Source: Nemophila menziesii (lineage: Eukaryota > Streptophyta > Magnoliopsida > Boraginales > Hydrophyllaceae). From it: DNA of 64,000 nucleotides. Position 1 is the first letter of the stretch. Every line of letters begins with the position of its first letter. This document shows positions 1-64,000 of this stretch, piece after piece. The position numbers and the translations under genes are program-made. A model generated the notes under the pieces. It worked only from the letters and a program-made list of their open reading frames with translations. It searched no databases and was not told the DNA's origin. The DNA lies in NCBI GenBank assembly GCA_029959085.1, contig JARWIR010000002.1, positions 42,218,233 to 42,282,232 of the forward strand. The letters are read 5' to 3'.

Positions 1-742
1 TAAAAGTCACTAATCCGTTCTTCCGTGGCTTTTCCGATGATTCATCTGGTGGTAACATACCTTTCTCAGTTGCCATCTTTTCGTCTACTAATACATCCTT
101 ATACTTTGCAAATATGTTCACCACCTAATTCATTAACAATTCAATCATTAATTTATAAATATGAATTAATATATCTTAGTATATATAATTAGTACGTACT
201 GTGGTTGCATCATCAAGATCCATTCCAAGAGCTTGATATTGTTCTAGTAATTGTTGTTTTTGCAAGGTGGGATGATTGGCTACATCCCATTCTGTGACCG
301 ATCTTTCTTTTGCAGCCACGTCATTCTCTGTGCTGCTTGACATGTAATCTCCAAACCCCATTGAATTTCCATCAGCCACCAAATTTGCAAATCCCAATAC
401 CAGAACATCACCTGTTAAAATTAGCTATAAATTATGCGCTACATGTACACTTGCACCCGTAATTGATTAATATTCCTGTAATTAATTATATAAGTTACCA
501 GAAGAAAGATGGCCAGCAGAGATGGAAGAAATTAAAGCAAAAGAAGTGACAATAGCATCAAGGCCTCCATATATAATGCTCTTCACAAATTCACCTTTCC
601 ATGGTTCCTTTGGTCTTTCGCGCTCATTCAATCCTTTTTTACCTTTCTCCAATTCTCCATTATTTTTAGATCCATCCAACAATGGCCTCTTGCTATTTCC
701 AGAGCCACCACCATCATCAGCATTATCGTTGTTTCTACCCAT
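1..742 (-). pseudogene. VIT-family gene fragment, unit 1 (exon 3 cut by window edge)
   Basis: Exon 1 is about 499-742, exon 2 about 200-411 and exon 3 runs from about 124 off the left edge. It has the GDYMSSS form of exon 2 and the VVNIF form at the start of exon 3. Exon 1 is followed, on the high-coordinate side, by an SPT5 NGN exon and the Helitron block. Confidence 0.85.
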
Positions 743-799
743 TCCTTGAAATTTCGATGATCGGTACAGCTCGATATGTTCGTGTTATATATAATAGAT

Positions 800-968
800 A
801 GATATGTATCATAAACATATACTTCTCTTTCTTTACCAAAAATAGATATATGTAGTAAACATATACATGATAACTTACAGCACATTTTACCATCCATAAA
901 GATTGTTGTTCAACATCTACTGTTCGAACAGAAGGTAATAAAGATTCTTCTTGATCATATCTCGATTA
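800..968 (-). pseudogene. SPT5-like NGN exon fragment, unit 1 (exon 1 replaced by Helitron)
   Basis: Segment ending LWMVKCA at 879 with a GT donor, plus the GKEREV stretch near 800-840. Exon 1 is missing because the Helitron block starts at 1165, exactly where exon 1 would end. Confidence 0.75.
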
Positions 969-1017
969 GTGTTGTATCCGTAAATCTATTTCAATTTGGA
1001 TATTTTGGTAATTCTTC

Positions 1018-3180
1018 TTAAATTAGATAACGTAAGTTACAAAAAAATTCACCCAAATTAACACAATTTCTAGCGTAAGTACCAATTTGTGGACAAAAAA
1101 ACCGTAAATGAAGTAAAGAGGAGAGAAAATTATGATTAGAGATGATTAGAGAAACGCTAACCGTAAGTGCAGTTCGGCCTCCTTTCAATAACAAAGATGC
1201 AATTCCAGATGAAGCCACAGTTATAACTGTATAACCTAAGCTCCGACATTTTGTTGCAATTGTGTTATACAAAAATGTCTTCCCTGTTCCAGCACCTCCA
1301 TTCAAGAAAAAAGTTTCTCCCTTTCTATTTATAGCGGAATCCATGACTTTTTTGTAAGCGTTTTTTTGTGCATCATTAAGACGATCAACATTCAGTTGTG
1401 CATCAATTTCTTGTGCTTCCCTCTGAAGTTGTTGATGTTCACACATTAGTCTATTTCTCAATGGTGAGCTCCAATTTCTATTCGATTGCGGCATTGGTGG
1501 AAAGTCGTCTAAACTTTTTCCCGATTCTATCAACATGGTATTCAAGAGATATAAGCCATAATCTTCCAATTCATCTACAGTGGGTTGCAGAATACTATAA
1601 GATGAACGCAGCTTTGATGCAAGATCATCACAAATGTTATGTGAAAACTTTTTCCACAACTCATATGGATGTAATGGATTACAATGCATCAATATAATTG
1701 AAAACAATCTTCTCAATTGATAACCAGTCTTCATAAGTGACGCTTCTTCCAAACAATGTACCCATTCATCATCTTTCTCTAGAAGTCCTCTAGCAGCACA
1801 TGCTAACTTGAATGAACTATAGAGTGTATTATTATATGTTCGGAGACACTCAAATGATTGGGGCCCTTTGACAACAGAAAGTAACAACCGAAGATAAAAT
1901 CTCTCTCCACAATTAGGGCTAGCAAAATACATGCGACCAATAGCAAAACCTCGTTTTCTAGGTGTCCAACTCGCATCCTTTTTATTCCAAACAAAATGTT
2001 GTGGGAATTCCTGATACGTAAAATCACGTGCTCCTTCATTATTTGCACAACATTCAAAAAATGCGGTAAGACTTGATTTTTGATGCATAGCACCAGAAAT
2101 AATCGATTCCACAGATTTGCTTGAATCAAAAACAACTTGATGTTCTCCTGGTAAATGAATATGCAGTCGAACAACATTGGGTACTTCTTCGTGTAAAATA
2201 TGTCCGAATATTCGCCATGCTGCTTCATGGGGTCCAATATATCTCGCATCAAGATATTGTTGAATCTCATCACCACCTAAAACCATAGTTGTACGATCAT
2301 GACCTTTGTATATGTACTTATGGATATACTTGACACATCTTATCCCTGCACAAACTTCAACATTAATATGATAGTGGAACATCCTGGATAAATATGGATT
2401 GTATGGTACGACATCCCTATTATCAATTTTGCATCCCCTAACTTCAAAAACTCGACCATCATTCCGACGACGATATATTGGATAACCATCTTGATCCATA
2501 GATGTGGCATCCACAAAATCTTTAGGGTACTTTTTAGTACATTTTTTATTCTCCATACATGGCGAGTTAGGATTTCGAGCACCACAGGGTCCATGCACCT
2601 TAAAATTGACCACGGTATCAAAAAGAATTGGGTCATTCTTTAAATTAGGAAGTTCAGCACATACAAACAGGTCCACTTGAGCAGTTGTTCGAATTTTATC
2701 ATGTCCATCCAAAAATATCAACACATGCATATGCGGTAGACCTCGTTTTTGAAACTCAATCGTCAAGACCTTTCCTACTTGTTTTCCGAATATCTTTTTT
2801 TCATGAATTTCTTTCAAAAGTCGAGCTCTTTTTAACTCAAAAACACGCGCCACTAAATCGGGCCTATCAGATATTTTCTGGTTTGGAAGCAAAGCTGATG
2901 TTATTTCAGGCCAGTTTGGATTCGCTGTCATTGTAAGAAAAATATCTGGATGCTGGTTATAGCGTGTTATTTCCATTGAATCTTGGAATATTTCGAACAT
3001 ATTTCTAGCACTTCCTGTAAAAGAAGATGGTAGAATCCTCCGCTTACCAACTTTATCCGGTGACAACCCTTCAGTAACAGCATTTGTAAAATCATAATAT
3101 AATTCTACGCGGAACCTGTCTTGATTTAACTTATAATATGTCAAACGGTTTTGCTCCGTTGCGGCCCAAGCATCTACCAA
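1018..3180 (-). pseudogene. Helitron Rep domain and start of helicase, copy 1
   Basis: A 720-codon open frame continuing the Rep/helicase after a frameshift. Rep motifs are intact: [13 protein letters not shown] (about 80-93), the two-histidine metal site in [10 protein letters not shown] (His150, His152), and the two-tyrosine motif [10 protein letters not shown] (Tyr285 and Tyr289), which nicks and joins DNA in HUH-type initiators. The Helitron spacer region follows, then helicase motif I GGAGTGKT (628-635) and [16 protein letters not shown], ending at residue 671. There the family sequence stops: the last 49 residues are read from array-unit DNA (presumed SPT5 intron), so helicase motifs beyond this point are absent. 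Full Rep/helicases run several hundred residues further. With the upstream stop and frameshift, this is a dead, 3'-truncated copy. Confidence 0.93.
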
Positions 3181-3305
3181 AAATTCTTGAAATAATTTAC
3201 CACTCTTAAAATCGTCGAATATTCGTTAGGACGCTGAAATATGCGGTAACTATAGTAATCCATTTGCGTTAACCTTTTTGTTGAATATCTATTGCGAGAA
3301 GGATC

Positions 3306-5504
3306 TCATCGTTTAAATCCTGGTTCCCATCCAAGTTCCCCATATGGAAACATGAGTACATAATGTAAAGGTAGATAAGCTGGATGACATTCACTGATCC
3401 TCATGAGCTGATTATCTCCTTTTAGATGTAGAATGATATCTCTCGTTGAACTCGTCTCGGTTCCATCCCCCGGAATGATAACAGCCACATCATCTGAAGT
3501 TGGAAGATTATATCGTCGACGATCTTTTCCCGCAGAATAATGTAAGTGCACCGGAATATTTCTAGAGGCCACCTCAGGTCGATTTAAGATTGCAGAAGCC
3601 TGGCGATATTTATGAGTGAATACATTGTGCTCCAACATAGAATTCTGAATAGTTCTTAAGACATCACTCCTTAGATTAGGATTTCGTTTGTTACGAATGT
3701 CTAAGGCACAATCGGGATCGTAAATATATAATTGAGCGTATGTAGGATCACGATTTTCTTGTGGCTCCAATGAACCAGTTCGATGTCTCAATTCTCCATG
3801 AATTGTGAATAACGACGGTCCTCTTCCGCCAACAACCCTTTCATCCATTTTGACACCCAAACTTGTAAAAGCGTTAGCTGCATTATACCCTCGAGTGTAA
3901 CGACGAAAAGATATAGACTGTGGTGTTGAGCCATCGTATAAAGCTTGAATTTCTGGTGGAGGAGTGATAAGATCGGGAAGATTAATTTGGCCTTCCAAAC
4001 AACATGTCCCAAATTTTGAAATAGACACAGGAGGTTTTTTCAGTCTTTCAGCCTTCCAATGTAAAGCTTTACAATGCGGGATTATTACATTCATATCTCC
4101 CAACGAAAAACGTACTTCATCTATATTTTCAGTGATGGTATGTTCTTGATGATCTCCACTATTATATTCTCCATCAGTATCATATTCTTCTTCATGATAT
4201 GAATTCGATGGTGATTCAATAATTTGTTCAGAAAGAGAGGATTCACCGATATGTCGTGGTGCATCCAAAGAATGTGTATTTGATAGATTAATATAATTTG
4301 GTGTGAATGGATTTCTACCAAACACATTATTACCTAACGGATGAGTCGTTTTATGGAGAGTATTACTGGGCGAGTCCTCATGACTTAACATCCTACGTGA
4401 CCTATATTTTTCCCAACGTAAACTCTGACCTAATCTACGTTTAGATAACAACTGAACCTCTGGTTCACGAGTCATGAAATTTTGATCCATGGAATTACTT
4501 GAGCACCGAACTTGGGGTTGAATATGAGATTGTGTTTTTGTGTTTTGGGTTGAATTTGGTGATCTTCCAATATTCAACCGTTCCCATGAAACCTCGTGTG
4601 CTCTTTGTAATTGTCGAGTTAATCGTCGTCGAGAATTTAATGAAGGTAATTCTGGACCACTACTTGTCACTTGAGAAGTTTGGCCTAACCATTCCCTTTC
4701 TCGGCGTATACGTTGGGCTAATACAGCTCTAGATAACTCTATATTTCCTGGATTCTAATGTTCGTGATGAATTTAAAGTTAATTTTATACTTCAAGGCTG
4801 TTGAAATTTTAAATAAATAGACATACTATAGTGTATAATGTACCATTTGGGAACTATTTCGCTTGGTTTTTTATTTGACCGGGGGGTCGACCTTTTCTTT
4901 ACCCTTATTCTTTGTTCTATCACAATCCTGATGAACAATATGATTTTTATTTAGATACATTTACCAAAATTGTAATTTATTTGTATAAGTATAATTTTAA
5001 ACGTACTTGGCCATATTTTCTTTGGTGATTTAGATTATCTTGAGCAAGTATCCGACCTCTATCATTCTCATCATGTATACCTATACCCTTATTTTTATTG
5101 TAAAAGAATTCTACCTATGAATTTAATATAACATAACTACTATTAAACATGTAAAATAAATAAACAATTTAGGAATAAAATAAATAAAATTTTGGTAACT
5201 AACTTGTGGATTATTTGGTTGAAAAGACGAATTGGTATGAATATTACTTGTCTCTTTCTCATAATTTTTGTGCATGGTCTTCATTATTGTGTCCTGTAAA
5301 TTTAATACATATAACTCAATATATTAAAACGTTAAAATAAAATAAATATCTTTCAAGAATTATTAAAAAAAATGCTATAACCTCGTAATTAGAAAATCCA
5401 AATCTATATTATATTGCACCTCAGTTATTAATCTAATTTTTTTTTGCCTTACACTCTTTCATGAAAAATTTGCGTATCATGTAACCTCTTTTTCTCTTCG
5501 CCAT
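3306..5504 (-). pseudogene. Helitron Rep/helicase, N-terminal part (inferred exons 1-5), copy 1
   Basis: N-terminal region of a Helitron replication initiator/helicase, the enzyme of rolling-circle transposition. I infer four short 5' exons that splice in frame at GT-AG borders: 5455-5504 (starts MAKRKRGYMIRKFFMK), 5382-5403, 5204-5293 and 5007-5114. They feed a long exon entering at 4754 as NPGNIELSRAVLAQRIRRER and open to a TGA at 3306-3308. The long exon has the family's basic stretch LTRQLQRAHEVSWERL, an acidic linker, a CxxC/C-C zinc-finger-like region and the conserved end LPLHYVLMFPYGELGWEPGFKR, where the TGA replaces the next codon. Counting from the first residue encoded at 4670, position 197 of the finger is Ile; copy 2 has Cys there. 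After the TGA the frame continues for about 30 codons, then shifts near 3205 into the Rep domain. Identity is strong; the 5' exon model is inference. Confidence 0.8.
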
Positions 5505-6120
5505 TGTAACCCAATTATCACTTCTCACCAGGTACAAATCTACAATTTAGGGGTATAAGAGAAGTTATTCTTCTCAACAAATTATAAACTAAGGTCTGCC
5601 ATTACAATCTACATGAGGTTTATGGTTGTTCGATGATTAATTTGGAATAAATTATCTAAATTTCAATCTTAATTATACAAAAGGCTTTGGATAAATTAAG
5701 CAAGATATTAGTCATTTTTTACTTTTTATGCTAAATTCCATTGTTTTGTTTGGAGGCTGAGTTGTTAGCTAATTGAGTAACATTAATCATCGACACTTGG
5801 GGGTCAGTTGAAGGTAATACCGTCTTACTTCTATTCTCTTTATTCAGGACTTTAATTAGTTATTGTATCAGTAATGTTAATATAAAGTGATGGGTTCACG
5901 ATTTCAATTAGTTTCTCAATAGGTATATAAATAACCATTTTCAGAACTGAAGAAATACAGAAATCTGTATTAAACTTAGACTCAGTAGTTATTGTAATGT
6001 TATGAAGAAAAGAAATATTTACCTGATACAGCTTCCTCAACACGTGGTAAAGGCACCGATGTATGAAGAATTCAGATAAGGAACAAAAGTCACAATTTGT
6101 GTTTAATCTTAAATGTTAAG

Positions 6121-6304
6121 AAACCAGAGTATTTTTGATCGACTTAATAAGAACGTGTATTACATAGTAGAAAAAGAGATGGAAATGGTGGTTGTGTGTA
6201 ATTTTAAATTTAAATAAACCAGAACCTTTCTGATAGAGTTATTAAGATCGTGTATTACATAGTAGAAAAGGAGAGGGAAATGGTGGTTACAGTTACAAAT
6301 TCAA
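6121..6304. repeat. Two-copy direct repeat of about 90 bp in Helitron upstream DNA
   Basis: Copy one 6121-6215 and copy two 6216 to about 6304 share an AAACCAGA start, a GTGTATTACATAGTAGAAAA core and a GGAAATGGTGGTT segment, with scattered differences. The counterpart in the second Helitron block starts at 29756. Confidence 0.75.
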
Positions 6305-6746
6305 ATAGATATTGAAGTAGTGGAGAGAGTGGTGGGTTAAAAAAAGGTAAAACATGTGGTAAATCTGAAATATATATAGAGAAAAGTGTAATTTGAAACT
6401 CCTGAAATAAATATATACTTGGAACAATTGAATGAATATATAATCCTTTGATTTATTGTTGTGGACCTGGCTAGACCTGCTCACCATTGAAGCTAGCTGT
6501 AATTCTTCTTTGTTAATCTAAGCTTTCGAATACTGTTTTCTCAAAATTTCTTTGAAACTATATGTAGTATGTAACTAATAGCATTGTGACCCACGTAAAA
6601 CTAATATTTTTACTGTACTTATACACAGAATTTGAAATGTTAACCCATTTTCTCAAAAAAGGAAAACCAAAATTTCATAGCATTATGAATGTTTGAATTT
6701 ATTCTAAGAGATTGTGAACTACTGATTATCGTATATTTGTTGTTTT

Positions 6747-6899
6747 ATTTGCATATTCGGTCTCTGTGTGGACCGATTATTTTAAACCCATCAACAAATG
6801 AAGATTATTCATACATGATTATGGTAGATTTGGTTTTTTATTTGCATCTTAGGTCCCTGTGTGCACTGATTATTTTAATTGCTTCAACAAATGAAGATA
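6747..6899. repeat. Imperfect direct repeat near the outer Helitron edge
   Basis: Two stretches of about 60 bp (6747-6808 and 6839-6899) share TATTTGCAT, a GGTC-CTGTGTG segment, GATTATTTTAA and CAACAAATGAAGAT. They lie 50-200 bp from the block edge at 6948. The counterpart lies near 30382-30534. Confidence 0.65.
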
Positions 6900-6948
6900 A
6901 GTCTTAGACTTTTGCAATTATAAAGTATTGATGCGTTAAAAACAGAGT

Positions 6949-7300
6949 GATTCTTTGGACTTGCATTGCGGATAGCTTCTGGTGTACAATCTGGTTCGGG
7001 AGTTTTGCAAGTGAAGTGCAGCTTCTTCTGGAGTACTCTCAAACATGGAAAAACATTGTAATATCTCGAGAAAGCCGTGATAGTGTGCTTCTGTAACTTG
7101 TACACCTTGAAATAAATATATTACAGAGTGATTTATTTATATGATATGTACTTTAAGATCAAAATTATTATTCAAATGGAAAGAGTTTAATTTGTCATTT
7201 GCTACTGTCCATAGTGGTTTTGTATGTTGGGTAATACAACGTAAGGGGTATATGGTGCAATTAAGTACACCAAAAACAATTAGGCACCAATGGAGAAAGT
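6949..7300 (-). pseudogene. Unknown 126-codon ORF, broken copy beside Helitron block 1
   Basis: Homologous DNA is present, but an in-frame TAA replaces the Lys codon after LKVHII (near 7143), and the 3' end is cut by the Helitron block edge at 6948. The exon-like stretch and its acceptor remain; the donor is changed from ATGTAAGT to ATGCAAGT. Confidence 0.6.
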
Positions 7301-7906
7301 AAATCAAAAAAAAATATTTAATAAAGGTTGTATGAACTTAAGTTCTGAATGATATATACAATAATTGTGCAGGAGTTATCAATGATATTAATACAACATT
7401 GTAGGAAAAATACTACATTTACAATAGAAAAAAAATAAAATAAAAGAATCTAACTTATTATCACACTCTAAAATTGTACAAAATTCATTCAACACTTTTT
7501 TTTATCCGTCAGTTTTCATAGCCACCTCTGAATATTCGCGAACATCTCTTGGTCTAACTTTTATCAAAGTTATCCTTGTATTATAGTTGAAATTTACAAA
7601 CATTAAAAACTTTGATTTTGTAACCTAAAATGAGAAAATCACCTAAAAAGGTTAGTCAGATATATAGAAAAAATCACGTAAAAGAATCTGTTACTCACAT
7701 AATAATTACCCAAAAATTACACCTATAATTAACCCTTCACAGTAAATGTTTTACCACTTCCAAAAGGTCCTGATCTGGTCATACACAAATCTACAGACAT
7801 AATTACCCAAGAATCTGTTAATATTGAATTAATATGAAGTGTAAGTAAAAAAAAAACAACCTATTATATATCTCATACCCTTACATACCTGTAAATTATC
7901 CATTTA

Positions 7907-8743
7907 TTAGATCACATCAAGTGCTTCTTTATCATTGCGAGTAAAAGGTTTGAGGATAATGAAGGCAAATATAGGCGCACATCCAAAAACAATAAATGCT
8001 GTAAAAGTCACTAATCCGTTCTTCCATGGCTTTTCCGATGATTCATCTGGTGGTAACATACCTTTCTCAGTTGCCATCTTTTCGTCTACTAATACATCCT
8101 TATACTTTGCAAATATGTTCACCACCTAATTCATTAACAATTCAATCATTAATTTATAAATATGAATTAATATATCTTAGTATATATAATTAGTACGTAC
8201 TGTGGTTGCATCATCAAGATCCATTCCAAGAGCTTGATATTGTTCTAGTAATTGTTGTTTTTGCAAGGTGGGATGATTGGCTACATCCCATTCTGTGACC
8301 GATCTTTCCTTTGCAGCGACGTCATTCTCTGTGCTGCTTGACACGTAATCTCCAAACCCCATTGAATTTCCATCAGCCACCAAATTTGCAAATCCCAATA
8401 CCAGAACATCACCTGTTAAAATTAGCTATAAATTATGCGCTACATGTACACTTGCACCCGTAATTGATTAATATTCCTGTAATTAATTATATAAGTTACC
8501 AGAAGAAAGATGGCCAGCAGAGATGGAAGAAATTAAAGCAAAAGAAGTGACAATAGCATCAAGGCCTCCATATATAATGCTCTTCACAAATTCACCTTTC
8601 CATGGTTCCTTGGGTCTTTCGCGCTCATTCAATCCTTTTTTACCTTTCTCCAATTCTCCATTATTTTTAGATCCATCCAACAATGGCCTCTTGCTATTTC
8701 CAGAGCCACCACCATCATCAGCATTATCGTTGTTTCTACCCAT
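7907..8743 (-). pseudogene. VIT/CCC1-family (vacuolar iron transporter-like) gene fragment, unit 2
   Basis: Three exons on the minus strand join in frame: 8500-8743 (from ATG, MGRNNDN), 8201-8412 and 7907-8125, each with GT-AG borders, giving about 224 residues. VIT-family proteins move Fe2+/Mn2+ into the vacuole or ER-derived bodies using five membrane segments and a cytosolic metal-binding domain between segments 2 and 3. Seen here: an acidic/basic N-terminus, segment 1 with the conserved Asp (YGGLDAIVTSFALISS), segment 2 (VLVLGFANLVADG, then SMGFGDY with the conserved Met), the charged helical domain (TEWDVANHP to LVDEKMATEKGMLPPDE), and segment 3 (LVTFTAFIVFGCAPIFAFIIL). The frame then stops after NDKEALDVI. 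Segments 4 and 5 are absent, so transport is unlikely. The closest family match from memory is the plant membrane-protein-of-ER-body (MEB)-like branch, but that assignment is tentative. Confidence 0.88.
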
Positions 8744-8799
8744 TCCTTGAAATTTAGATGATCGGTACAGCTCGATATGTTCGTGTTATATATAATAGA

Positions 8800-9361
8800 T
8801 AGATATGTATCATAAACATACACTTCTCTTTCTTTACCAAAAATAGATATATGTAGTAAACATATACATGATAACTTACAGCACATTTTACCATCCATAA
8901 AGATTGTTGTTCAACATCTACTGTTCGAACAGAAGGTAATAAAGATTCTTCTTGATCATATCTCGATTAGTGCTGTATCCGTAAATCTATTTCAATTTGG
9001 ATATTTTGGTAATTCTTCTTAAATTAGATAACGTAAGTTACAAAAAAATTCCCCCAAATTAACACAATTTCCAGCGTAAGTACCAATTTGTGGACAAAAA
9101 AACCGTAAATGAAGTAAAGAGGAGAGAAAATTATGATTAGAGATGATTAGAGAAACGCTAACCGTCTTCTCCTAAGAATTGCGATCCGGCCCTCCTTTGC
9201 TTCAGTATAGGTGCTGGCCGACCACGGCCACCGCCACCACCTCTGTCATCAACATCGGCTTCTTCTTTAATAAATGAAGACCTTCCCCCTTTCCGAGCAG
9301 TTTTGGCGCTGTAATCTTCCTCCTCCTATACTTCCTCATCGTCGTCTCTTCTCCTCGGCAT
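8800..9361 (-). pseudogene. SPT5-like transcription elongation factor, 5' fragment, unit 2
   Basis: SPT5 pairs with SPT4 on RNA polymerase II and controls elongation in the nucleus. Exon 1 (9163-9361) begins MPRRRDDDEE and, after an in-frame TAG as codon 12 (9326-9328), continues EEEDYSAKTARKGGRSSFIK, then EEADVDDRGGGGGRGRP and KQRRAGSQFLGEDG to a GT donor. This acidic, basic and Gly-rich make-up matches plant SPT5 N-termini. A second segment (about 8880-8968) reads YDQEESLLPSVR, then VEQQSLWMVKCA, then a GTAAGT donor. The LLPSVR and LWMVKCA blocks are hallmarks of the start of the SPT5 NGN domain. A further stretch near 8840-8800 reads GKEREVYVY, like the following SPT5 block. A TAA precedes the second segment in its own frame. 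The rest of SPT5 (NGN core, KOW domains, C-terminal repeats) is absent. The 5' UTR extends to about 9558. Confidence 0.78.
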
Positions 9362-9536
9362 AGCTTGGTTTGATATAACTTAAACGCTTAGTAAATCCGT
9401 CATTTTAATTGGGAGTTTCTCCATAACCGTTGAAGAGAATGGAGAAAAAAAATAAGGCGTTTGGGAATTTTGTAAGAAGTGGAAATGGGAAGTTAAAAAA
9501 CAGATATTAAGGAAAATAATAAAAATATGTGGATGG

Positions 9537-9917
9537 TCAAGATCTATTTAAGATGCCAGATTCTTTGGACTTACATTGCGGATAGCTTCTGGTGTACAAT
9601 CTGGTTAGGGAGTTTTGCAAGTGAAGTGCAGCTTCTTCTGGAGTACTCTCAAACATGGAAAAACATTGTAATATCTCGAGAAAGCCGTGATAGTGTTCTT
9701 CTGTAACTTGTACACCTTGAAATAAATATATTGCAGAGTGATTGATTTTTATGATATGTACTTTAAGATCAAAATTATTATTCAAATGGAAAGAGTTTAA
9801 TTTGTCATTTGCTACTGTCCATAGTGGTTTTGTATGTTGGGTAATACAACGTAAGGGGTATATGGTGCAATTAAGTACACCAAAAACAATTAGGCACCAA
9901 TGGAGAAAGTAAATCAA
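9537..9917 (-). CDS. Unknown 126-codon ORF of the array unit, unit 2/3
   Basis: An open frame with no family I recognise. The first half (MIYFLHWCLIVFGVLNC, PLRCITQHTKPLWTVAND) is hydrophobic at the start, and the second half reads GVQVTEEHYHGFLEILQCF, then STPEEAALHLQNS. The DNA around the second half looks like an exon: a TTTCAG-type acceptor (TTTATTTCAAG) just before GVQVTE and a GTAAGT donor near 9578, so the captured exon may be only about 9580-9720 with intron sequence read through upstream. A second frame through that exon (ending CTPEAIRN at the donor) is also open, so the true frame is unsure. It lies just upstream, in plus-strand order, of the SPT5 5' UTR. Probably another captured gene piece. 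Confidence 0.4.
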   Translation of the reverse strand: MIYFLHWCLIVFGVLNCTIYPLRCITQHTKPLWTVANDKLNSFHLNNNFDLKVHIIKINHSAIYLFQGVQVTEEHYHGFLEILQCFSMFESTPEEAALHLQNSLTRLYTRSYPQCKSKESGILNRS

Positions 9918-10512
9918 AAAAAAATATTTAATAAAGGTTGTATGAACTTAAGTTCTGAATGATATATACAATAATTGTGCAGGAGTTATCAATGATATTA
10001 ATACAACATTGTAGGAAAAATACTACATTTACAATAGAAAAAAATAAAATAAAAGAATCTAACTTATTATCACACTCCAAAATTGTACAAAATTCATTCA
10101 ACACATTTTTTTTATCCGTCAGTTTTCATAGCCACCTCTGAATATTCGCGAACATCTCTTGTCTAACTTTTATCAAAGTTATCCTTGTATCACAGTTGCA
10201 ATTTACAAACATTAAAAACTTTGATTTTGTAACCTAAAATGAGAAAATCACCTAAGAAGGTTAGTCAGATATATAGAAAAATCACGTAAAAGAATCTGTT
10301 ACTCACATAATAATTACCCAAAAATTACACCTATAATTAACCCTTCACAGTAAATGTTTTACCACTTCCAAAAGGTCCTGATCTAGTCATACACAAATCT
10401 ACAGACATAATTACCCAAGAATCTGTTAATATTGAATTAATATGAAGTGTAAGTAAAAAAAACAACCTATTATATATCTCATACCCTTACATACCTGTAA
10501 ATTATCCATTTA
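9918..10512 (-). other. Array-unit spacer between VIT exon 3 and the unknown ORF
   Basis: About 595 bp without a recognised gene. On the minus strand it holds a 23-codon ORF (10408-10337) ending GPFGSGKTFTVKG, which contains a Walker-A-like GxxGxGKT. Further on (about 10200-10131) is a stretch that in some units reads VRPRDVREYSEVAMKTDG before a stop. In units near 15370, 20590, 23200 and 62390 that stretch is preceded in frame by DNFDV. In this unit and several others one G is missing, shifting the frame. These may be further captured exon pieces; no identity is assigned. Confidence 0.45.
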
Positions 10513-11349
10513 TTAGATCACATCAAGTGCTTCTTTATCATTGCGAGTAAAAGATTTGAGGATAATGAAGGCCAATATAGGCGCACATCCAAAAACAATA
10601 AATGCTGTAAAAGTCACTAATCCGTTCTTCCATGGCTTTTCCGATGATTCATCTGGTGGTAACATACCTTTCTCAGTTGCCATCTTTTCGTCTACTAATA
10701 CATCCTTATACTTTGCAAATATGGTCACCACCTAATTCATTAACAATTCAATCATTAATTTATAAATATGAATTAATATATCTTAGTATATATAATTAGT
10801 ACGTACTGTGGTTGCATCATCAAGATCCATTCCAAGAGCTTGATATTGTTCTAGTAATTGTTGTTTTTGCAAGGTGGGATGATTGGCTACATCCCATTCT
10901 GTGACCGATCTTTCCTTTGCAGCGACGTCATTCTCTGTGCTGCTTGACACGTAATCTCCAAACCCCATTGAATTTCCATCAGCCACCAAATTTGCAAATC
11001 CCATTACCAGAACATCACCTGTTAAAATTAGCTATAAATTATGCGCTACATGTACACTTGCACCCGTAATTGATTAATATTCCTGTAATTAATTATATAA
11101 GTTACCAGAAGAAAGATGGCCAGCAGAGATGGAAGAAATTAAAGCAAAAGAAGTGATAATAGCATCAAGGCCTCCATATATAATGCTTTTCACAAATTCA
11201 CCTTTCCATGGTTCCTTTGGTCTTTCGCGCTCATTCAATCCTTTTTTACCTTCCTCCAATTCTCCATTATTTTTAGATCCATCCAACAATGGCCTCTTGC
11301 TATTTCCAGAGCCACCACCATCATCAGCATTATCGTTGTTTCTACCCAT
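10513..11349 (-). pseudogene. VIT-family gene fragment, unit 3
   Basis: Same three-exon fragment. Distinguishing changes are GELEEGKKGL in exon 1, DAIITSF in segment 1, VLVMGFAN at the start of segment 2, and VVTIF instead of VVNIF at the exon 3 start. All splice borders are intact. Confidence 0.88.
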
Positions 11350-11405
11350 TCCTTGAAATTTAGATGATCGGTACAGCTCGATATGTTCGTGTTATATATA
11401 ATAGA

Positions 11406-11967
11406 TAGATATGTATCATAAACATATACTTCTCTTTCTTTACCAAAAATAGATATATGTAGTAAACATATACATGATAACTTACAGCACATTTTACCAT
11501 CCATAAAGATTGTTGTTCAACATCTACTGTTCGAACAGAAGGTAATAAAGATTCTTCTTGATCATATCTCGATTAGTGCTGTATCCGTAAATCTATTTCA
11601 ATTTGGATATTTTGGTAATTCTTCTTAAATTAGATAACGTAAGTTACAAAAAAATTCCCCCAAATTAACACAATTTCCAGCGTAAGTACCAATTTGTGGA
11701 CAAAAAAACCGTAAATGAAGTAAAGAGGAGAGAAAATTATGATTAGAGATGATTAGAGAAACGCTAACCGTCTTCTCCTAAGAATTGCGATCCGGCCCTC
11801 CTTTGCTTCAGTATAGGTGCTGGCCGACCACGGCCACCGCCACCACCTCTGTCATCAACATCGGCTTCTTCTTTAATAAATGAAGACCTTCCCCCTTTCC
11901 GAGCAGTTTTGGCGCTGTAATCTTCCTCCTCCTATACTTCCTCATCGTCGTCTCTTCTCCTCGGCAT
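11406..11967 (-). pseudogene. SPT5-like 5' fragment, unit 3
   Basis: Exon 1 at 11769-11967 with the TAG at codon 12; NGN segment about 11486-11574; GKEREV form downstream. Confidence 0.76.
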
Positions 11968-12142
11968 AGCTTGGTTTGATATAACTTAAACGCTTAGTAA
12001 ATCCGTCATTTTAATTGGGAGTTTCTCCATAACCGTTGAAGAGAATGGAGAAAAAAAATAAGGCGTTTGGGAATTTTGTAAGAAGTGGAAATGGGAAGTT
12101 AAAAAACAGATATTAAGGAAAATAATAAAAATATGTGGATGG

Positions 12143-12523
12143 TCAAGATCTATTTAAGATGTCAGATTCTTTGGACTTACATTGCGGATAGCTTCTGGTG
12201 TACAATCTGGTTCGGGAGTTTTGCAAGTGAAGTGCAGCTTCTTCTGGAGTACTCTCAAACATGGAAAAACATTGTAATATCTCGAGAAAGCCGTGATAGT
12301 GTTCTTCTGTAACTTGTACACCTTGAAATAAATATATTGCAGAGTGATTGATTTTTATGATATGTACTTTAAGATCAAAATTATTATTCAAATGGAAAGA
12401 GTTTAATTTGTCATTTGCTACTGTCCATAGTGGTTTTGTATGTTGGGTAATACAACGTAAGGGGTATATGGTGCAATTAAGTACACCAAAAACAATTAGG
12501 CACCAATGGAGAAAGTAAATCAA
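12143..12523 (-). CDS. Unknown 126-codon ORF, unit 3/4
   Basis: Intact copy; differs from the 9537 copy by Leu to Arg (NSRTRLY) and Gly to Asp near the end. Confidence 0.38.
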   Translation of the reverse strand: MIYFLHWCLIVFGVLNCTIYPLRCITQHTKPLWTVANDKLNSFHLNNNFDLKVHIIKINHSAIYLFQGVQVTEEHYHGFLEILQCFSMFESTPEEAALHLQNSRTRLYTRSYPQCKSKESDILNRS

Positions 12524-13118
12524 AAAAAAATATTTAATAAAGGTTGTATGAACTTAAGTTCTGAATGATATATACAATAATTGTGCAGGAGTTATCAATG
12601 ATATTAATACAACATTGTAGGAAAAATACTACATTTACGATAGAAAAAAATAAAATAAAAGAATCTAACTTATTATCACACTCCAAAATTGTACAAAATT
12701 CATTCAACACATTTTTTTTATCCGTCAGTTTTCATAGCCACCTCTGAATATTCGCGAACATCTCTTGTCTAACTTTTATCAAAGTTATCCTTGTATCACA
12801 GTTGCAATTTACAAACATTAAAAACTTTGATTTTGTAACCTAAAATGAGAAAATCACCTAAGAAGGTTAGTCAGATATATAGAAAAATCACGTAAAAGAA
12901 TCTGTTACTCACATAATAATTACCCAAAAATTACACCTATAATTAACCCTTCACAGTAAATGTTTTACCACTTCCAAAAGGTCCTGATCTAGTCATACAC
13001 AAATCTACAGACATAATTACCCAAGAATCTGTTAATATTGAATTAATATGAAGTGTAAGTAAAAAAAACAACCTATTATATATCTCATACCCTTACATAC
13101 CTGTAAATTATCCATTTA

Positions 13119-13955
13119 TTAGATCACATCAAGTGCTTCTTTATCATTGCGAGTAAAAGATTTGAGGATAATGAAGGCCAATATAGGCGCACATCCAAAA
13201 ACAATAAATGCTGTAAAAGTCACTAATCCGTTCTTCCATGGCTTTTCCGATGATTCATCTGGTGGTAACATACCTTTCTCAGTTGCCATCTTTTCGTCAA
13301 CTAATACATCCTTATACTTTGCAAATATGGTCACCACCTAATTCATTAACAATTCAATCATTAATTTATAAATATGAATTAATATATCTTAGTATATATA
13401 ATTAGTACGTACTGTGGTTGCATCATCAAGATCCATTCCAAGAGCTTGATATTGTTCTAGTAATTGTTGTTTTTGTAAGGTGGGATGATTGGCTACATCC
13501 CATTCTGTGACCGATCTTTCCTTTGCAGCCACGTCATTCTCTGTGCTGCTTGACACGTAATCTCCAAACCCCATTGTATTTCCATCAGCCACCAAATTTG
13601 CAAATCCCAATACCAGAACATCACCTGTTAAAATTAGCTATAAATTATGCGCTACATGTACACTTGCACCCGTAATTGATTAATATTCCTGTAATTAATT
13701 ATATAAGTTACCAGAAGAAAGATGGCCAGCAGAGATGGAAGAAATTAAAGCAAAAGAAGTGATAATAGCATCAAGGCCTCCATATATAATGCTCTTCACA
13801 AATTCACCTTTCCATGGTTCCTTTGGTCTTTCTCGCTCATGCAATCCTTTTTTACCTTTCTCCAATTCTCCATTATTTTTAGATCCATCCAACAATGGCC
13901 TCTTGCTATTTCCAGAGCCACCACCATCATCAGCATTATCGTTGTTTCTACCCAT
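13119..13955 (-). pseudogene. VIT-family gene fragment, unit 4
   Basis: Variant class shared with units 7 and 12: HERERPK in exon 1, DAIITSF, GNTMGFGDY in exon 2, and a TAG-bearing change just upstream of exon 1 (CAGCTAGATATGTTAGTG). Exon 3 starts VVTIF. Confidence 0.88.
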
Positions 13956-51100: not shown

Positions 51101-51309
51101 TTACCTGAAATGTTAGGATCATCGATCTGGTACAAGCAAAAAGAGAATCGTAATTGGTCTTGAGTGCATAGGGTTGACTCATACTAGTTAACATGACATC
51201 TAATGATGAAAGAAGAAGATTTCGTAGTGTAAAAAAAGTGAAAATGAGATCTCTGAAAATGTATTGTGAGAATACATGGAGAAGAGTTAACGAAGAAACT
51301 TAACCGAAG

Positions 51310-51414
51310 TAGGGTTTTGTGGAGAAGATAGAAGATTAAGTATCCCCTATATATGTTTACCTTTTGGGCCATATTGACTATATTTTTTATTTTAAGTTTT
51401 GGTATCTTTGGGCC
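51310..51414 (-). promoter_or_regulatory. Minus-strand promoter: two site II motifs, TATA box, telo-box
   Basis: Read on the minus strand: GGCCCA (51409-51414), GGCCCA (51365-51370), TATATA (51348-51354), then the telo-box AAACCCTA (51310-51317) about 35 bp past the TATA box. This order and spacing is typical of plant ribosomal-protein and cell-proliferation genes. Downstream lies a possible first exon ending in a TTTCAG/GTAAAG donor at 51105, with an ATG at 51182 opening MSQPYALKTNYDSL. No protein family was recognised. Confidence 0.6.
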
Positions 51415-53456
51415 TTATTAGATATATACTAATTTTTCTGGCTATGATATAGGCTTTAGTTATACCAAAATGTAAAGTCCACTACCATTTTATTTAATAT
51501 TTTGAAATGAATTGAAATGAACCAGGTAAAACATCGAGGATAATGTAAAAATTGACCTATTTAACCACATGTCTTTATTTATAACATGGACTCTGACCAC
51601 ACGGTCTATTAATTTTATATGAAATTTTTAAATAACATGGAAAGATATGAAAATATAAGTAAAAGATCATAATTTTGTCTCAATTTTTACCTTACCTGTT
51701 TTATAGTCGGGGAAACACTAAAAATGGAGAACTTGTAAAATATTTTGTTTATAGAAGTTTTTTTCTAACAAAAAAACATAAACCACTTGATAATGTACAT
51801 TGTACATACTACATACAATGTAAGTCTACTTCTTTTTAATTTCTTCAATCTTTAAGTTCAAATAATTTACACTAATTTTAACAATGATATATATAAAATA
51901 ATTATTAATATGTATGGCAGATTGGACCTTAATTAAGAGGGGTTTGCTTACAATAAGATCTAGTATATATAATAACCCACTGGTTTTTCTAAAAATAAGT
52001 TCTTGTATATACCAAACCCCATGGTCATATCCTTGTATTAATGGATCGAGCGAGTCGAACAAACAATTTTCGCACCTCTAGTAGAAGATATGACCTTTAA
52101 AAACTATGGTGCGGTAGATAACATCGTTTCAATTATGTGGTAATAGATAATAGGACATGATAGTGATGTATTATGAAACAAGGGAATGAAATAGTCGTAT
52201 TTAATTTATTTATTTTGAAATACATATTTCTTATATGATTTGTATTATCAAATAATTTAAAAAATAGAAAAATTTGATAATTGGTTTATGTTATTGAAAC
52301 GTAAAGACACACTCATTAATTTAGGGAATATAAGGGGTTTAGGAGTGTCATCTAGCAATCTTAACCAAATATTCAAGCCTTTGATTCCAAAAATTGTATG
52401 GCAGTTTTGTGGAAACCCTCAAAATACCTACAACTCTATCTTTACATAGATCATGCAACCCCTAACTCTAATCTCACCCATACCTCACTTGATCACAAAT
52501 ACTCTAATATCCCACAAAATTTAATAGTAGAATTTCAACAAAAAATAGTAAAAATTGAGTCATGGATGATCGTGGGCCTTAGAACCTCTTTCTTCTTCAA
52601 CTCTTCCCTTTTAGGAGTTAGGGTTATTAAGAACCTTGGTAAAAAAAATTGGATAACTTTGCGTTTTTGTGATGTTTATAATATATATCTGATGTTAAGT
52701 TTATGACATATAATGTGGGTTTGGTGTGTTATGATGTAGAAGACATTGATGTGTAAGAAATTAATGCTTTTTTGTAAATAATATGTTGTATTTTATATTG
52801 ATTTATGATGTTTATAGAATGAATTTGATGGTGAAAAGATGTTTTCTAAAAATTATTTTAATGATTTTAGATGGATAAAATATAATGGTGGGTGATTTAA
52901 TGCAAATGGGTGAAACTTGAAGAAGGTTCTTTTTGTTTTGGGGATGGTGGAGAGGAAGAATATGATTGAGAATATACAGGTTTAATTATTCTTCTTACTT
53001 GATTATCCTATTTCCACTACCAAATGCTCCCCTAGATGTATTCAATAGCTATTAAACCCTATATATGTTGTAATAATACAAGAAATTTGGAATAAACATA
53101 TGGGAAATTTTAACAAAAACAATCCATGTTTATATACATGAGAAATCCAAAATTCATCATATTAAGCCATAAGTAATAGTTAGGGTTCATACCCAAGTGT
53201 CAAACTAATATATAGTTCTTATCATAATGTAAGAAAAGAAAACAAAATAAAGAGAAAATATAACTATATAAAAAATTACACTAATTAAAAAATAATTTGT
53301 TGTAATAGCTCTTTCATGCTTCTCTTACCCTTACCCTCAACATTTCTCTCAAAATTATAAGTAATAAGATTAAATATTGAAAAAACTAGTGTATATATAG
53401 CTCTATAAAACGTGTGGCATATGGTGGGCTTCCATAAGTGAGTCAAAATTTGTTTA

Positions 53457-53765
53457 ATAGATTCTTTGTAAATTTGGACACCTTTACGTCTTCACACCGA
53501 ACCATCTACAACATATTCATTTCTACTACAAAATGATCTATATTTCTTCTCACATACAATAAAGTCCAAGGAATAACTTGAGATAAAGTTTCATGATAAG
53601 CATCATTCAAAATTATTTGTTGTAGTTTTTCAAAAATGGTGTAAATATTTTAACAACACTTTTTGTTAAGTTTCTAGCAAACTTTTTGACTCCTTTTGAA
53701 TTGACACGAGTTTCTCCTTAAATTTTCAACTTCTTGACCTTATATTTCTTTCGCATATCATCCAT
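53457..53765 (-). pseudogene. Decayed coding-like stretch of unknown identity (in A')
   Basis: Counterpart of the stretch at 38880-39188, starting MDDMRKKYKVKKLK, with additional changes. Confidence 0.28.
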
Positions 53766-55070
53766 GGCCCTAGGAGATACACACTTAAAACTCAAATTAC
53801 CTCAAAATTATCAAACACAAGTATAAATCAAAGAATAAGCTATGACCTTACCATAACCGGATCCTCTATACTTGCTTAATTCGAATTACCCATCTTATTT
53901 GTTCCTAAAATTGCACACTACTCACTTAATTTCTTATTAATATCACCCAATACCTTGCTTTGTTTCTTCTTCATATCCCTAAAACTAGATAGTGTCTCAG
54001 TTCTTTTCGTCATCTGTTTTAACCCTAACTCAGAGGTTTAAACACTCTTGAACTAACCTTTTATTTAAGGTAAACAAGGTGTTATTTAGGTTACGAAAGG
54101 TGTAAGGATTATAATTCTTTATGTGGTTATGATAAACTCTTGCTTGGATGATATGGGTTTAAGAAAATTTGGAAAAATATCTAGAAAGTTTAGTGTTTAT
54201 TCTTGGATTCTAGGAGTTTTTGAGTGATTTGGGTGGGTAAATAGTGTTTATAGGAATGTAGGTAAGTGTTTGGATATAAATTTATGGAGATTCAATGTAT
54301 TTTTTATGAGAGTTTGATGTTTGGAGAAGCTTTAATGGAGTTCGGGTGTATTGGGGAAGAAGGAAGCTTAAGGTTTAATGGTCTTGACCTTCTTTTCTAG
54401 GCTTGTCGCAACCTGTACCGGCATATGCCGCCTATAGGGTCGACTTGCGGGTCGCATTCTTCATCCCTTCTAATCTATCACAAAATATGATACATCACAT
54501 ACCCTATATGAATAAATCATGTTACCAAAACATGTTGGGAAATCATTGGGTGTGATTAATTTCACGGTGATAGAGACATACCCTCTCTAGTGCTCTTGAA
54601 TATAAATATAAACTATTGAGGGGAATACTCTTTGAAAAGTAGAAACCTTTATTATTTTGTAAATGAGTCAGTATTGATCTAGTTTAGTATCAATTTTGGG
54701 TATTTAGTTTTCAATAATAAAATGTTTTGAGGGATACCATCTTCATTTGGTGGTTAATATTGATAGTTGTCAGATTAACTTTGCTCATATTAGGAGAAAA
54801 GAATGTGAAAATTGTGATACCGAATTATAGAACTATATAAGTTTTGTATTCGGTATATATGAGTGGATGAATAATGATTTCACAAGAAAAATGATGGACC
54901 TCGTAGAATAAGCATAGCTGATCCATACTTCAAGGATAGTAAAGTCATCACAAATGTGTCAAGTTTGCAATAACGAGATAAGTTATACTACGAAGTGAAA
55001 AGTTTAAGGTTGTCAACCAATGGTTACTACATATGCTTAGAAAATAATATAAAAGAAAACAAATATGGGA

Positions 55071-55372
55071 GGTACAGGGTTCGAATCCTGAAGGTGGAAG
55101 AAAGTTAAGAAGGTTGTTGGCCAGGGCTCTATTGTCTCATACATGAGGTCCAAGGTTCGAATCCTGAAGGTAGAAGAAAGTTAAGAAGGTTGTTGGCCAG
55201 GGCTCTATTTCTCATCCATGAGGTCCAATGTTTGAAACCCTCCTAGAACACCTAGTTCTGACTTGCATGGGGGCATGGTTGGGGAGGCAGTCATATCTCC
55301 CGTGGGATTAGTCGGGTGTAAGCTCGGAACCCACGTATCAAAAAAGAAAACAAAAAAATAAAAAAATAAAAA
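55071..55372 (+). mobile_element. tRNA-related SINE-like element with repeated heads (in A')
   Basis: Duplicate of the element at 40493, with B-box-like motifs at 55078 and about 55154 and an A-rich tail at 55339-55372. It shares the repeated-head arrangement, so that arrangement predates the A/A' duplication. Confidence 0.6.
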
Positions 55373-57521
55373 TGTTGGAGGTATACGAAAGGATTAGTTG
55401 ACTAAAAATAACACCATAATGGTAACTAACATAATAACTTTTGTATTTATTATAGAGATGCATAAACGATTAATAGGCTTAACTAAAAATGTTTTGAAAA
55501 TATGTGTATGACAAACATGCCATATAAGAGTAAAGGTTTTGTGAAAATATTAGAGAAGAGTAAGTGAACTAATAAAGAAACATTAGAGGAATAATTATTG
55601 AAAGTAGAGACTAACGTAATGCATGCAAAGATCGAAGTAGTTTGTATTATTAGATAGGTCGTGTAATCTAAAGTTGAGTGTTGTCTAGAAAATAAAACAC
55701 CGCCATTTTTTGTTATTAAAATTCCACTTACTATATATACTTTGTTGAAATTTTACAATATAACATACTTATATTATTTATTATATAGAGGATTATTTTG
55801 TGATCTACTAATAATGTGTCTTATATGAACATGTTTGATATTAGGTGTTTGCTAAAATATTGAATCCCCTACGAATATTAGTATATTTATCTTAAATATT
55901 CAAATTATATATATTAATACATAAAAATGAAATCATAATACATATGAGGTATCACATCAAGACCTTTATTTCTTTCGTTTCTTTCGCTTTGTTTCTATAC
56001 ATGAGGAGGTTAAATTGATGGTAATTTGGATTTTCAAGTAAAGATCAACAAAATTTGCACCTCGACCACCATAAAAATCAAAAGGACTAGCAATTTCTCT
56101 TTTTCGATGGTATTAAATTTTTTTTACCACCTTTATCCACTTTGATGACCAAAAAAAGATTCTAATTTGCTGGTCTTTAAAATAAATCAAAACTCTAATC
56201 CAATAGAAAATTTGAATTCCATTTACATGTCTAGATTCTGAAACCCAACATCTCTACTAGAATGACTAGCTCTAGCAGTTTCTAGTATTGGTATATAAAA
56301 CTCGGTACAGTAAAAAATATGAATGATCAAAATTGAAGTAAAATAATAGAAAACATAAAGATAAAGAGTAGCTAACACGTATTTTAAAGATACATGTCGG
56401 TAGTTCTTTTTTAATGAGTAAAGTTATATACCATTGACATACATATTTGATAATCGTATCGAATAACGTTTAGTGGGTTAATATATTTAAGTATTAAATA
56501 CATGTAAACCTTTGACATGAGATCATCTTTCTAGTTTCATGTGTACTTTTTGTGCTTACACACTACACTACTAGTTTTATAAATTACTACTCAAACAAAT
56601 ATTGAATAAATCAAAGTATTTTTGTAAAAATGCGTGAGTCAAGATAATTTTTATAACATTTTGCTAAATATTTTGAGCACAACGAAGTTGTAAGATTATA
56701 ACATATGTATTAAATACTCTACCAATGTGATATAACTAATGAAAAAATGAGTATATTAGGTCATTCATCAATCGGTGGTAATCAACACATAATATAATTT
56801 ATTATCTAATTATATTTGACATTATTACAATATTTTATGATAATATGGAGTTATAATGATAGAGAAAGTACATGTGTTATTCTTTACCATGTTTTTCGTT
56901 AAGAGTAACTTGTCATTATATTGTTGTTAGATTCCAATTATAAAGGTTGTATGAACTTAAGTTCTGAATGATATATACAATAATTGTGCAGGAGTTATCA
57001 ATGATATTAATACAACATTGTAGGAAAAATACTACATTTACAATAGAAAAAAATAAAATAAAAGAATCTAACTTATTATCACACTCCAAAATTGTACAAA
57101 ATTCATTCAACACATTTTTTTTATCCGTCAGTTTTCATAGCCACCTCTGAATATTCGCGAACATCTCTTGTCTAACTTTTATCAAAGTTATCCTTGTATC
57201 ACAGTTGCAATTTACAAACATTAAAAACTTTAATTTTGTAACCTAAAATGAGAAAATCACCTAAGAAGGTTAGTCAGATATATAGAAAAATCACGTAAAA
57301 GAATCTGTTACTCACATAATAATTACCCAAAAATTACACCTATAATTAACCCTTCACAGTAAATGTTTTACCACTTCCAAAAGGTCCTGATCTAGTCATA
57401 CACAAATCTACAGACATAATTACCCAAGAATCTGTTAATATTGAATTAATATGAAGTGTAAGTAAAAAAAACAACCTATTATATATCTCATACCCTTACA
57501 TACCTGTAAATTATCCATTTA

Positions 57522-61755: not shown

Positions 61756-62136
61756 TCAAGATCTATTTAAGATGCCAGATTCTTTGGACTTACATTGCGG
61801 ATAGCTTCTGGTGTACAATCTGGTTCGGGAGTTTTGCAAGTGAAGTGCAGCTTCTTCTGGAGTACTCTCAAACATGGAAAAACATTGTAATATCTCGAGA
61901 AAGCCGTGATAGTGTGCTTCTGTAACTTGTACACCTTGAAATAAATATATTGCAGAGTGATTGATTTTTATGATATGTACTTTAAGATCAAAATTATTAT
62001 TCAAATGGAAAGAGTTTAATTTGTCATTTGCTACTGTCCATAGTGGTTTTGTATGTTGGGTAATACAACGTAAGGGGTATATGGTGCAATTAAGTACACC
62101 AAAAACAATTAGGCACCAATGGAGAAAGTAAATCAA
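61756..62136 (-). CDS. Unknown 126-codon ORF, unit 13/14
   Basis: Intact copy, same protein as the 17356 and 33171 copies. Confidence 0.38.
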   Translation of the reverse strand: MIYFLHWCLIVFGVLNCTIYPLRCITQHTKPLWTVANDKLNSFHLNNNFDLKVHIIKINHSAIYLFQGVQVTEAHYHGFLEILQCFSMFESTPEEAALHLQNSRTRLYTRSYPQCKSKESGILNRS

Positions 62137-62731
62137 AAAAAAATATTTAATAAAGGTTGTATGAACTTAAGTTCTGAATGATATATACAATAATTGTGCA
62201 GGAGTTATCAATGATATTAATACAACATTGTAGGAAAAATACTACATTTACAATAGAAAAATATAAAATAAAAGAATCTAACTTATTATCACACTCCAAA
62301 ATTGTACAAAATTCATTCAACACATTTTTTTTATCCGTCAGTTTTCATAGCCACCTCTGAATATTCGCGAACATCTCTTGGTCTAACTACATCAAAGTTA
62401 TCCTTGTATCACAGTTGCAATTTACAAACATTAAAAACTTTGATTTTGTAACCTAAAATGAGAAAATCACCTAAGAAGGTTAGTCAGATATATAGAAAAA
62501 TCACGTAAAAGAATCTGTTACTCACATAATAATTACCCAAAAATTACACCTATAATTAACCCTTCACAGTAAATGTTTTACCACTTCCAAAAGGTCCTGA
62601 TCTAGTCATACACAAATCTACAGACATAATTACCCAAGAATCTGTTAATATTGAATTAATATGAAGTGTAAGTAAAAAAAACAACCTATTATATATCTCA
62701 TACCCTTACATACCTGTAAATTATCCATTTA

Positions 62732-63566
62732 TTAGATCACATCAAGTGCTTCTTTATCATTGCGAGTAAAAGATTTGAGGATAATGAAGGCCAATATAGG
62801 CGCACATCCAAAAACAATAAATGCTGTAAAAGTCACTAATCCGTTCTTCCATGGCTTTTCCGATGATTCATCTGGTGGTAACATACCTTTCTCAGTTGCC
62901 ATCTTTTCGTCTACTAATACATCCTTATACTTTGCAAATATGGTCACCACCTAATTCATTAACAATTCAATCATTAATTTATAAATATGAATTAATATTA
63001 TAGTATATATAATTAGTACGTACTGTGGTTGCATCATCAAGATCCATTCCAAGAGCTTGATATTGTTCTAGTAATTGTTGTTTTTGTAAGGTGGGATGAT
63101 TGGCTACATCCCATTCTGTGACCGATCTTTCCTTTGCAGCCACGTCATTCTCTGTGCCGCTTGACACGTAATCTCCAAACCCCATTGAATTTCCATCAGC
63201 CACCAAATTTGCAAATCCCAATACCAGAACATCACCTGTTAAAATTAGCTATAAATTATGCGCTACATGTACACTTGCACCCGTAATTGATTAATATTCC
63301 TGTAATTAATTATATAAGTTACCAGAAGAAAGATGGCCAGCAGAGATGGAAGAAATTAAAGCAAAAGAAGTGACAATAGCATCAAGGCCTCCATATATAA
63401 TGCTCTTCACAAATTCACCTTTCCATGGTTCCTTTGGTCTTTCGCGCTCATTCAATCCTTTTTTACCTTTCTCCAATTCTCCATTATTTTTAGATCCATC
63501 CAACAATGGCCTCTTGCTATTTCCAGAGCCACCACCATCATCAGCATTATCGTTGTTTCTACCCAT
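62732..63566 (-). pseudogene. VIT-family gene fragment, unit 14
   Basis: SSGTEND/VVTIF form, nearly identical to unit 6. Last complete VIT copy in the window. Confidence 0.88.
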
Positions 63567-63622
63567 TCCTTGAAATTTAGATGATCGGTACAGCTCGATA
63601 TGTTCGTGTTATATATAATAGA

Positions 63623-64000
63623 TAGATATGTATCATAAACATATACTTCTCTTACTTTACCAAAAATAGATATATGTAGTAAACATATACATGATAACTT
63701 ACAGCACATTTTACCATCCATAAAGATTGTTGTTCAACATCTACTGTTCGAACAGAAGGTAATAAAGATTCTTCTTGATCATATCTCGATTAGTGCTGTA
63801 TCCGTAAATCTATCTCAATTTGGATATTTTGGTAATTCTTCTTAAATTAGATAACGTAAGTTACAAAAAAATTCCCCCAAATTAACACAATTTCCAGCGT
63901 AAGTACCAATTTGTGGACAAAAAAACCGTAAATGAAGTAAAGAGGAGAGAAAATTATGATTAGAGATGATTAGAGAAACGCTAACCGTCTTCTCCTAAGA
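63623..64000 (-). pseudogene. SPT5-like 5' fragment, unit 14 (cut by window end)
   Basis: NGN segment about 63703-63791 is complete. Only the last 15 bases of exon 1 (63986-64000) are inside the window. Confidence 0.74.

Follow-up and report, generated by a model that had tools for sequence, protein, structure and literature searches.

A 64-kb stretch of Nemophila menziesii DNA (contig JARWIR010000002.1 of assembly GCA_029959085.1, positions 42,218,233 to 42,282,232; hereafter the window) carries a head-to-tail array of a 2.6-kb unit in which part of a VIT-family gene stands beside other exon-like stretches. The array is probably a gene-fragment macrosatellite, that is, a 2.6-kb chimera turned over by unequal exchange, with a Helitron transposon carried along as a passenger. 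When the unit at 8483-11088 was used as a blastn query within the window, matches were found across the whole 64 kb in a single orientation and with identities of 97.2-99.6% (query self-match excluded), and unit-derived bases made up 32,289 of the 64,000. This pattern is far beyond chance, and the homogenised head-to-tail units of kilobase length are those of a macrosatellite. The search bears out the multi-kilobase array of the original prediction, which had been made from the letters alone, and its figure of at least 14 copies holds when pieces are counted, as there are 15: nine whole 2.6-kb units, two 8-kb units, one split unit, one 0.93-kb piece and two cut ends. Position 8483 is an arbitrary place to begin the unit and lies within VIT intron 1. 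The layout is as follows, with positions inside the repeat marked as unit positions.

Starts at 8483, 11089, 13695, 16302, 18906, 21510, 32117, 58098 and 60701: nine whole 2.6-kb units, from blastn
8483-24116: six of these whole units in a row (starts 8483, 11089, 13695, 16302, 18906 and 21510)
482-8482: first 8-kb unit, made of unit 1-683, a 5.78-kb Helitron-bearing segment and unit 1077-2606
24117-32116: second 8-kb unit, a duplicate of the first including its neighbourhood
34723-35654: extra 0.93-kb piece
35655-58097: split unit, with an insert of about 20 kb inside
1-481 and 63306-64000: units cut by the window ends

The recognisable gene pieces all lie on one strand of the unit, as had been predicted, and the minus strand holds three VIT exons separated by GT..AG introns.

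10513-11349, minus strand: VIT-like fragment, exons 11349-11106, 11018-10807 and 10731-10513, 224 codons open, C-terminal part missing
9575-9715, minus strand: exon-like stretch X, with an AG acceptor and a GT donor
9164-9361, minus strand: 'SPT5-like' first-exon-like stretch with a GT donor, identity unconfirmed

The VIT1 domain (PF01988) was matched by exon 2 (E 7e-19) and exon 3 (E 7e-10), while exon 1 by itself gave no Pfam match; the end of exon 1 (11349-11106) was inferred from exon length. The spliced 224-residue product aligned with the VIT1 structure 6IU3 (E 1.7e-12) over query residues 49-210, and the alignment begins inside exon 1, at residue 49, and so confirms the end part of that exon as VIT. 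The match covers chain residues 9-168 of 234, which leaves roughly the final quarter of the VIT protein missing. The introns have been kept, so the pieces were joined at the DNA level; a retrocopy of VIT was rejected on the same ground. Of the three components that the original prediction had fused in the unit (SPT5-like, VIT and a third exon), only VIT is upheld by Pfam and 6IU3, whereas SPT5 and the third exon found no support in the databases. The N-terminal motif of 9361-9164 presumably resembles that of plant SPT5, a likeness that no search confirmed; homologue searches with this stretch gave no match, and it has a stop at codon 12 in 10 of the 10 rows that hold it. Exon-like stretch X (9715-9575) had no homologue in database searches, and its donor is GC rather than GT in both 8-kb units. 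In every row covered, an AG acceptor-like site (8743-8747) stands 2 bases ahead of the start codon of VIT. On paper, going by the letters, the SPT5-like donor could be spliced in frame to this AG, but the product would carry the codon-12 stop just described.

Exchange among the units is recorded in their sequence differences. The 16 aligned rows, of which 11 are whole or near-whole and 5 partial, contained 109 polymorphic columns, 46 of them informative. Divergence between copies is about 1%, with 2.3-20.3 substitution differences per 1000 among the 11 whole or near-whole rows, and near-identical pairs are found among non-neighbours (2.3 per 1000 for u3 and u6, 3.5 for u5 and u12). In a four-gamete test on the 46 informative columns, 303 of 1035 site pairs failed, against 1 of 45 pairs of adjacent sites. 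A stricter version, which used two-letter sites only and collapsed a cluster at unit 1680-1689 to one site, gave 156 failures in 741 pairs, with 4 of 91 at less than 150 bp and 152 of 650 farther apart. The units are therefore recombinant mosaics with a block pattern of exchange, as unequal crossing-over or conversion would give. The collapsed cluster consists of eight changes in ten bases (15374-15383), common to the units starting at 13695, 18906, 21510 and 60701, a pattern that suggests a shift by one base plus a small replacement more than independent point mutations.

The additional 5.8 kb in two of the units codes for a Helitron Rep/helicase, which shares the minus strand with the gene fragments. 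It is the sole transposon protein recognised in the window, and it occurs in the two 8-kb units only.

1168-4391, minus strand: Helitron Rep/helicase remnant in two frames, first 8-kb unit
24803-28026, minus strand: the same remnant, second 8-kb unit
6943-6952, minus strand: probable Helitron 5' junction (TC start at 6950-6949, A^T site) in the intron after exon X
1160-1172, minus strand: junction where the truncated helicase meets the SPT5-like donor and intron, with unit 684-1076 (about 393 bp) missing

Both the Rep domain (Helitron_like_N, PF14214, E 6e-50) and a truncated PIF1 helicase (PF05970, E 7e-23) were found. Compared with an Actinidia protein (P0001), residues 1-441 are read in one frame (4391-3180) and residues 432-1114 in another (3210-1168); the first frame is also interrupted by a stop at the end of the open reading frame (ORF) at 3306, and the helicase is cut at position 73 of 223 of the PIF1 profile. 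As read from these frames, the Rep/helicase gene is broken and cut. Its homologues numbered at least 6100 of 7963 scored candidates at E≤0.001, the best among the matches listed being an Actinidia protein at 70% identity. A tree of 27 rows (the window protein and 26 named proteins) placed it within a 14-row fork (100/99) with rows from Lonicera, Actinidia, Camellia, Diospyros, Dionaea and Rhododendron; the inner 13-row fork had values of 90/81, no small well-supported group contained the window protein, and its end branch was long (0.38). The grouping points to a eudicot as the probable source, although Helitrons are able to move between lineages.

The two junctions of this segment point to a later insertion. 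Short units retain the empty site of the 5' junction, which on the minus strand is CCAAAGAA^TCTGG in short units and CCAAAGAATCACTC in 8-kb units. The minus-strand reads across the junction, CCAAAGAATCTGG in short units and CCAAAGAATCACTCTG in 8-kb units, agree with the insertion, between A and T, of a Helitron whose 5' end is TC. The TC at the A^T junction is thus probably a Helitron 5' end, a call made from a short motif at a single insertion. The other side has lost the 3' part of the Helitron and some 393 bp of unit sequence (684-1076), and there the helicase directly adjoins the SPT5-like donor and intron; helicase homology stops at 1168, four bases from the start of unit sequence, with the junction at 1164/1165. 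The best hairpin with a CTRR motif in 1-8600 scored 10, within the range of 40 shuffles of the 5.8-kb segment, so no Helitron 3' end was recognised there. Two short tandem duplications, at 6097-6288 (period about 95 bp) and 6720-6898 (about 93 bp), lie in the presumed Helitron 5' region of both 8-kb units.

Both 8-kb units predicted earlier are present, but they count as one event. An 11.4-kb block occurs twice (1-11365 and 23636-34999, 99.46% identical), and because both junctions of the Helitron segment are common to the two units and both units lie within this block, they represent a single insertion that was duplicated. The 0.93-kb reduced unit of the original prediction likewise exists as a piece, but is really the product of an exact tandem duplication. 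A second disruption of the array, an AT-rich insert, splits one unit near a short exact duplication.

34066-35929: exact 932-bp tandem duplication, the origin of the 0.93-kb piece
36635-36746: exact 56-bp tandem duplication, adjoining the 20-kb insert
36797-56939: AT-rich insert of 20.1 kb replacing unit 1086-1448 (the unit is broken at 1085 and 1449)

The two halves of the 932-bp duplication (34066-34997 and 34998-35929) have 0 differences, while the eleven other matches of at least 930 query bases are 98.3-99.6% identical; being more alike than any other full copy, they are hence either very recent or an assembly slip. Within the insert, 36840-42360 and 51422-56939 form a direct repeat of 5.5 kb at an offset of 14.58 kb (95.8% identical), and a smaller inner repeat pairs 47740-48183 with 49016-49475 (81%). 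No ORF of at least 120 codons was present in the insert, and the 8 ORFs scanned of 17 listed (at least 62 residues, 36800-51500) had no Pfam match above the cut-off, four weak matches (E 0.03-0.2) falling below it. A long terminal repeat retrotransposon was considered for the insert and rejected, as the repeat has TTTTT..CCAATT ends with no TG..CA and the flanks form no target duplication; the tRNA-Met primer site TGGTATCAGA was absent from the window, other primer types not having been searched. The left breakpoint lies 2 bp from the Helitron site, a spacing expected by chance in roughly 1% of cases by our estimate. This suggests a shared break or fragile site, as yet an unproven lead. Eight sites in the left flank of the insert depart from the consensus; three of them fall where the 8-kb units also have sequence, and one of the three (570) is shared with those units. 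In the window as a whole, G+C ranges from 25 to 39% in 2-kb steps, ARAGORN found no tRNA, and no structured RNA family of Rfam reached its gathering score.

Taken as a macrosatellite, the array would owe its copy number and homogenisation to unequal crossing-over and gene conversion between misaligned units. In the intron next to exon X, a single Helitron insertion would have taken place at an A^T site, and the element would then have lost its 3' part along with about 393 bp of the unit; the crippled copy would later have been duplicated by the array, and the 20-kb DNA would be another passenger, one that may trace back to the same initial break. The joining act behind the first chimera leaves no record in the window. 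Several observations weigh against this account. Ten private alleles are common to the two 8-kb units, and nine of these lie in unit 1091-2072, so the 8-kb lineage is either old relative to the rest or has long been shielded from conversion; the alleles are also compatible with the Helitron-bearing form as the earlier one. In addition, u1 and u8, one in each copy of the 11.4-kb block, are 7.3 per 1000 apart, no closer than other pairs, and chance alone would, by our estimate, produce a TC start at an A^T site in roughly 1 of 64 cases.

The private alleles of the 8-kb lineage would suit a different origin, in which the unit is a Helitron, non-autonomous or truncated, that captured gene fragments, lost the terminator at its 3' end and was replicated as a rolling-circle head-to-tail concatemer, the 8-kb units being nearer the parent. 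Same-strand gene pieces with introns would fit Helitron capture, and the Rep/helicase does lie on the strand of the gene fragments; tandem arrays of truncated Helitrons have also been described in plants (available excerpt of PMC12628747). However, the best hairpin with CTRR in the 2.6-kb unit scored 11, which is the 95th percentile of 100 mononucleotide-shuffled units; it falls inside the SPT5-like exon, neither reported site being followed by TC. The Rep/helicase, itself frame-broken and cut, is confined to two units of one shared origin, and the 8-kb form is without some 393 bp that are present in the short units, so that the short unit is not its simple deletion. The test of the unit covered the Helitron 3' end, a bare 5' TC not being distinguishable; since a Helitron with a lost 3' end would leave just such a bare TC, a Helitron origin of the unit retains some probability, though we consider it unlikely. 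Ends of the Pack-MULE or Pack-CACTA type were also tried and rejected, the longest inverted pair over two units among the best 25 of 31 pairs being 25 nt at 72%; elements of these types are typically dispersed. The idea, put forward in the original prediction, that a transposon-built chimera was amplified as such thus finds no support in the unit itself, where neither a Helitron 3' end above the shuffle level nor long terminal inverted repeats were found, or in the Helitron, whose lone protein stands in two units of one origin with junctions that look like a later insertion. An artefact of assembly, by which copy number or junctions would be wrong, could account for the exact 932-bp and 56-bp duplications, which are the type of thing that misassembly can make. 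An assembler copying one unit would not create 109 polymorphic columns, 46 of them informative, in distinct mosaic haplotypes; given the divergence of about 1% and the recombinant mosaics, such copying is therefore an unlikely source of the array.

The state of the VIT frame bears on two further explanations, both of which give the array a function. If the frame were under selection, the array would be a tandem cluster of a working, truncated VIT gene. All 12 of the 12 rows with all three VIT exons lack stops and gaps, in a row-based reading that pairs exon 1 with exons 2 and 3 at the other end of the unit, not always its splice partners, and that leaves the splice-spanning codons to nine full spliced reads. 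The four VIT splice-site dinucleotides are intact in every row covered; the columns for the X acceptor and the SPT5-like donor, displaced by one base, were left out of this reading. In a pattern test, 9 of the 14 VIT copies read through the splices to 224 residues and 5 failed; T155N, carried by 4 of the 14, would explain four of these five failures. VIT variants comprise 14 nonsynonymous and 10 synonymous changes, below the neutral mean of 18.4 nonsynonymous in 24 (one-sided P 0.035). Against selection, the density of variants in the VIT exons (24/675) equals that in the rest of the unit (66/1591; P 0.56), the match to 6IU3 ends at residue 168 of 234, and 29% of neutral runs would be free of stops; youth and unequal exchange could by themselves keep frames open. 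A working gene cluster is, on this balance, very unlikely. We assign a similarly low probability to the proposal that the array is a plant counterpart of Su(Ste) of Drosophila, whose transcription, perhaps stimulated by the Helitron, would damp the intact parental VIT gene by way of small RNAs or a truncated VIT protein. Such damping, if true, would explain an open, spliceable VIT frame in every readable copy.

The macrosatellite reading has consequences beyond this locus. Long satellites built of gene fragments show how new tandem repeats start, and the junctions suggest an order with the chimera first, the Helitron later and the local duplications last. Transcription of the VIT frames, if it occurs, could make the array a regulator or a mimic of an iron transporter gene. 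If the frames are silent, the Helitron is a probable passenger, and the case warns against taking every Helitron that adjoins a tandem array as its maker.

Titles and abstract openings in the literature gave no pointer to this combination, which is weak evidence because subscription literature lies mostly outside that scope. Four known systems resemble it in part. Pack-MULE and Pack-CACTA elements of plants carry fragments of host genes (as stated in the available part of a review, PMC13317346), as the unit does, but the unit is without long terminal inverted repeats. In Populus, every KCS tandem gene has been reported to lie beside a Helitron (PMC13253262, in excerpt); tandem gene copies with a Helitron nearby are found here as well, but most units here have no Helitron and the VIT gene is truncated. 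Tandem arrays of truncated Helitrons were found in 27 plant genomes, many of which combine several 5' ends with one 3' end (Xiong, Dooner and Du 2016, as described in the available excerpt of PMC12628747). The likeness lies in head-to-tail plant repeats with Helitron sequence among them; in contrast, the unit here shows no Helitron 3' terminus, and Helitron sequence is found only in two related units. In the Su(Ste)/Stellate system of Drosophila melanogaster, tandem units are thought to be chimeric from gene parts, and a defective hoppel/1360 element lies inside Su(Ste) (PMC7874207, in excerpt). Captured gene sequences in maize Helitrons, in Pack-MULEs and in a Sirevirus have been described as reservoirs of small interfering RNAs (the excerpted review, PMC13317346), a role that bears on the Su(Ste)-like regulatory proposal. 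The present array shares with Su(Ste) a tandem chimera of gene parts that harbours a defective transposon (PMC7874207, same excerpt), but it belongs to another kingdom and involves other genes, its transposon is a Helitron found in 2 units only, and it is known from sequence alone. To our knowledge, Su(Ste) would nevertheless be the closest known parallel for a tandem chimera with a transposon inside.

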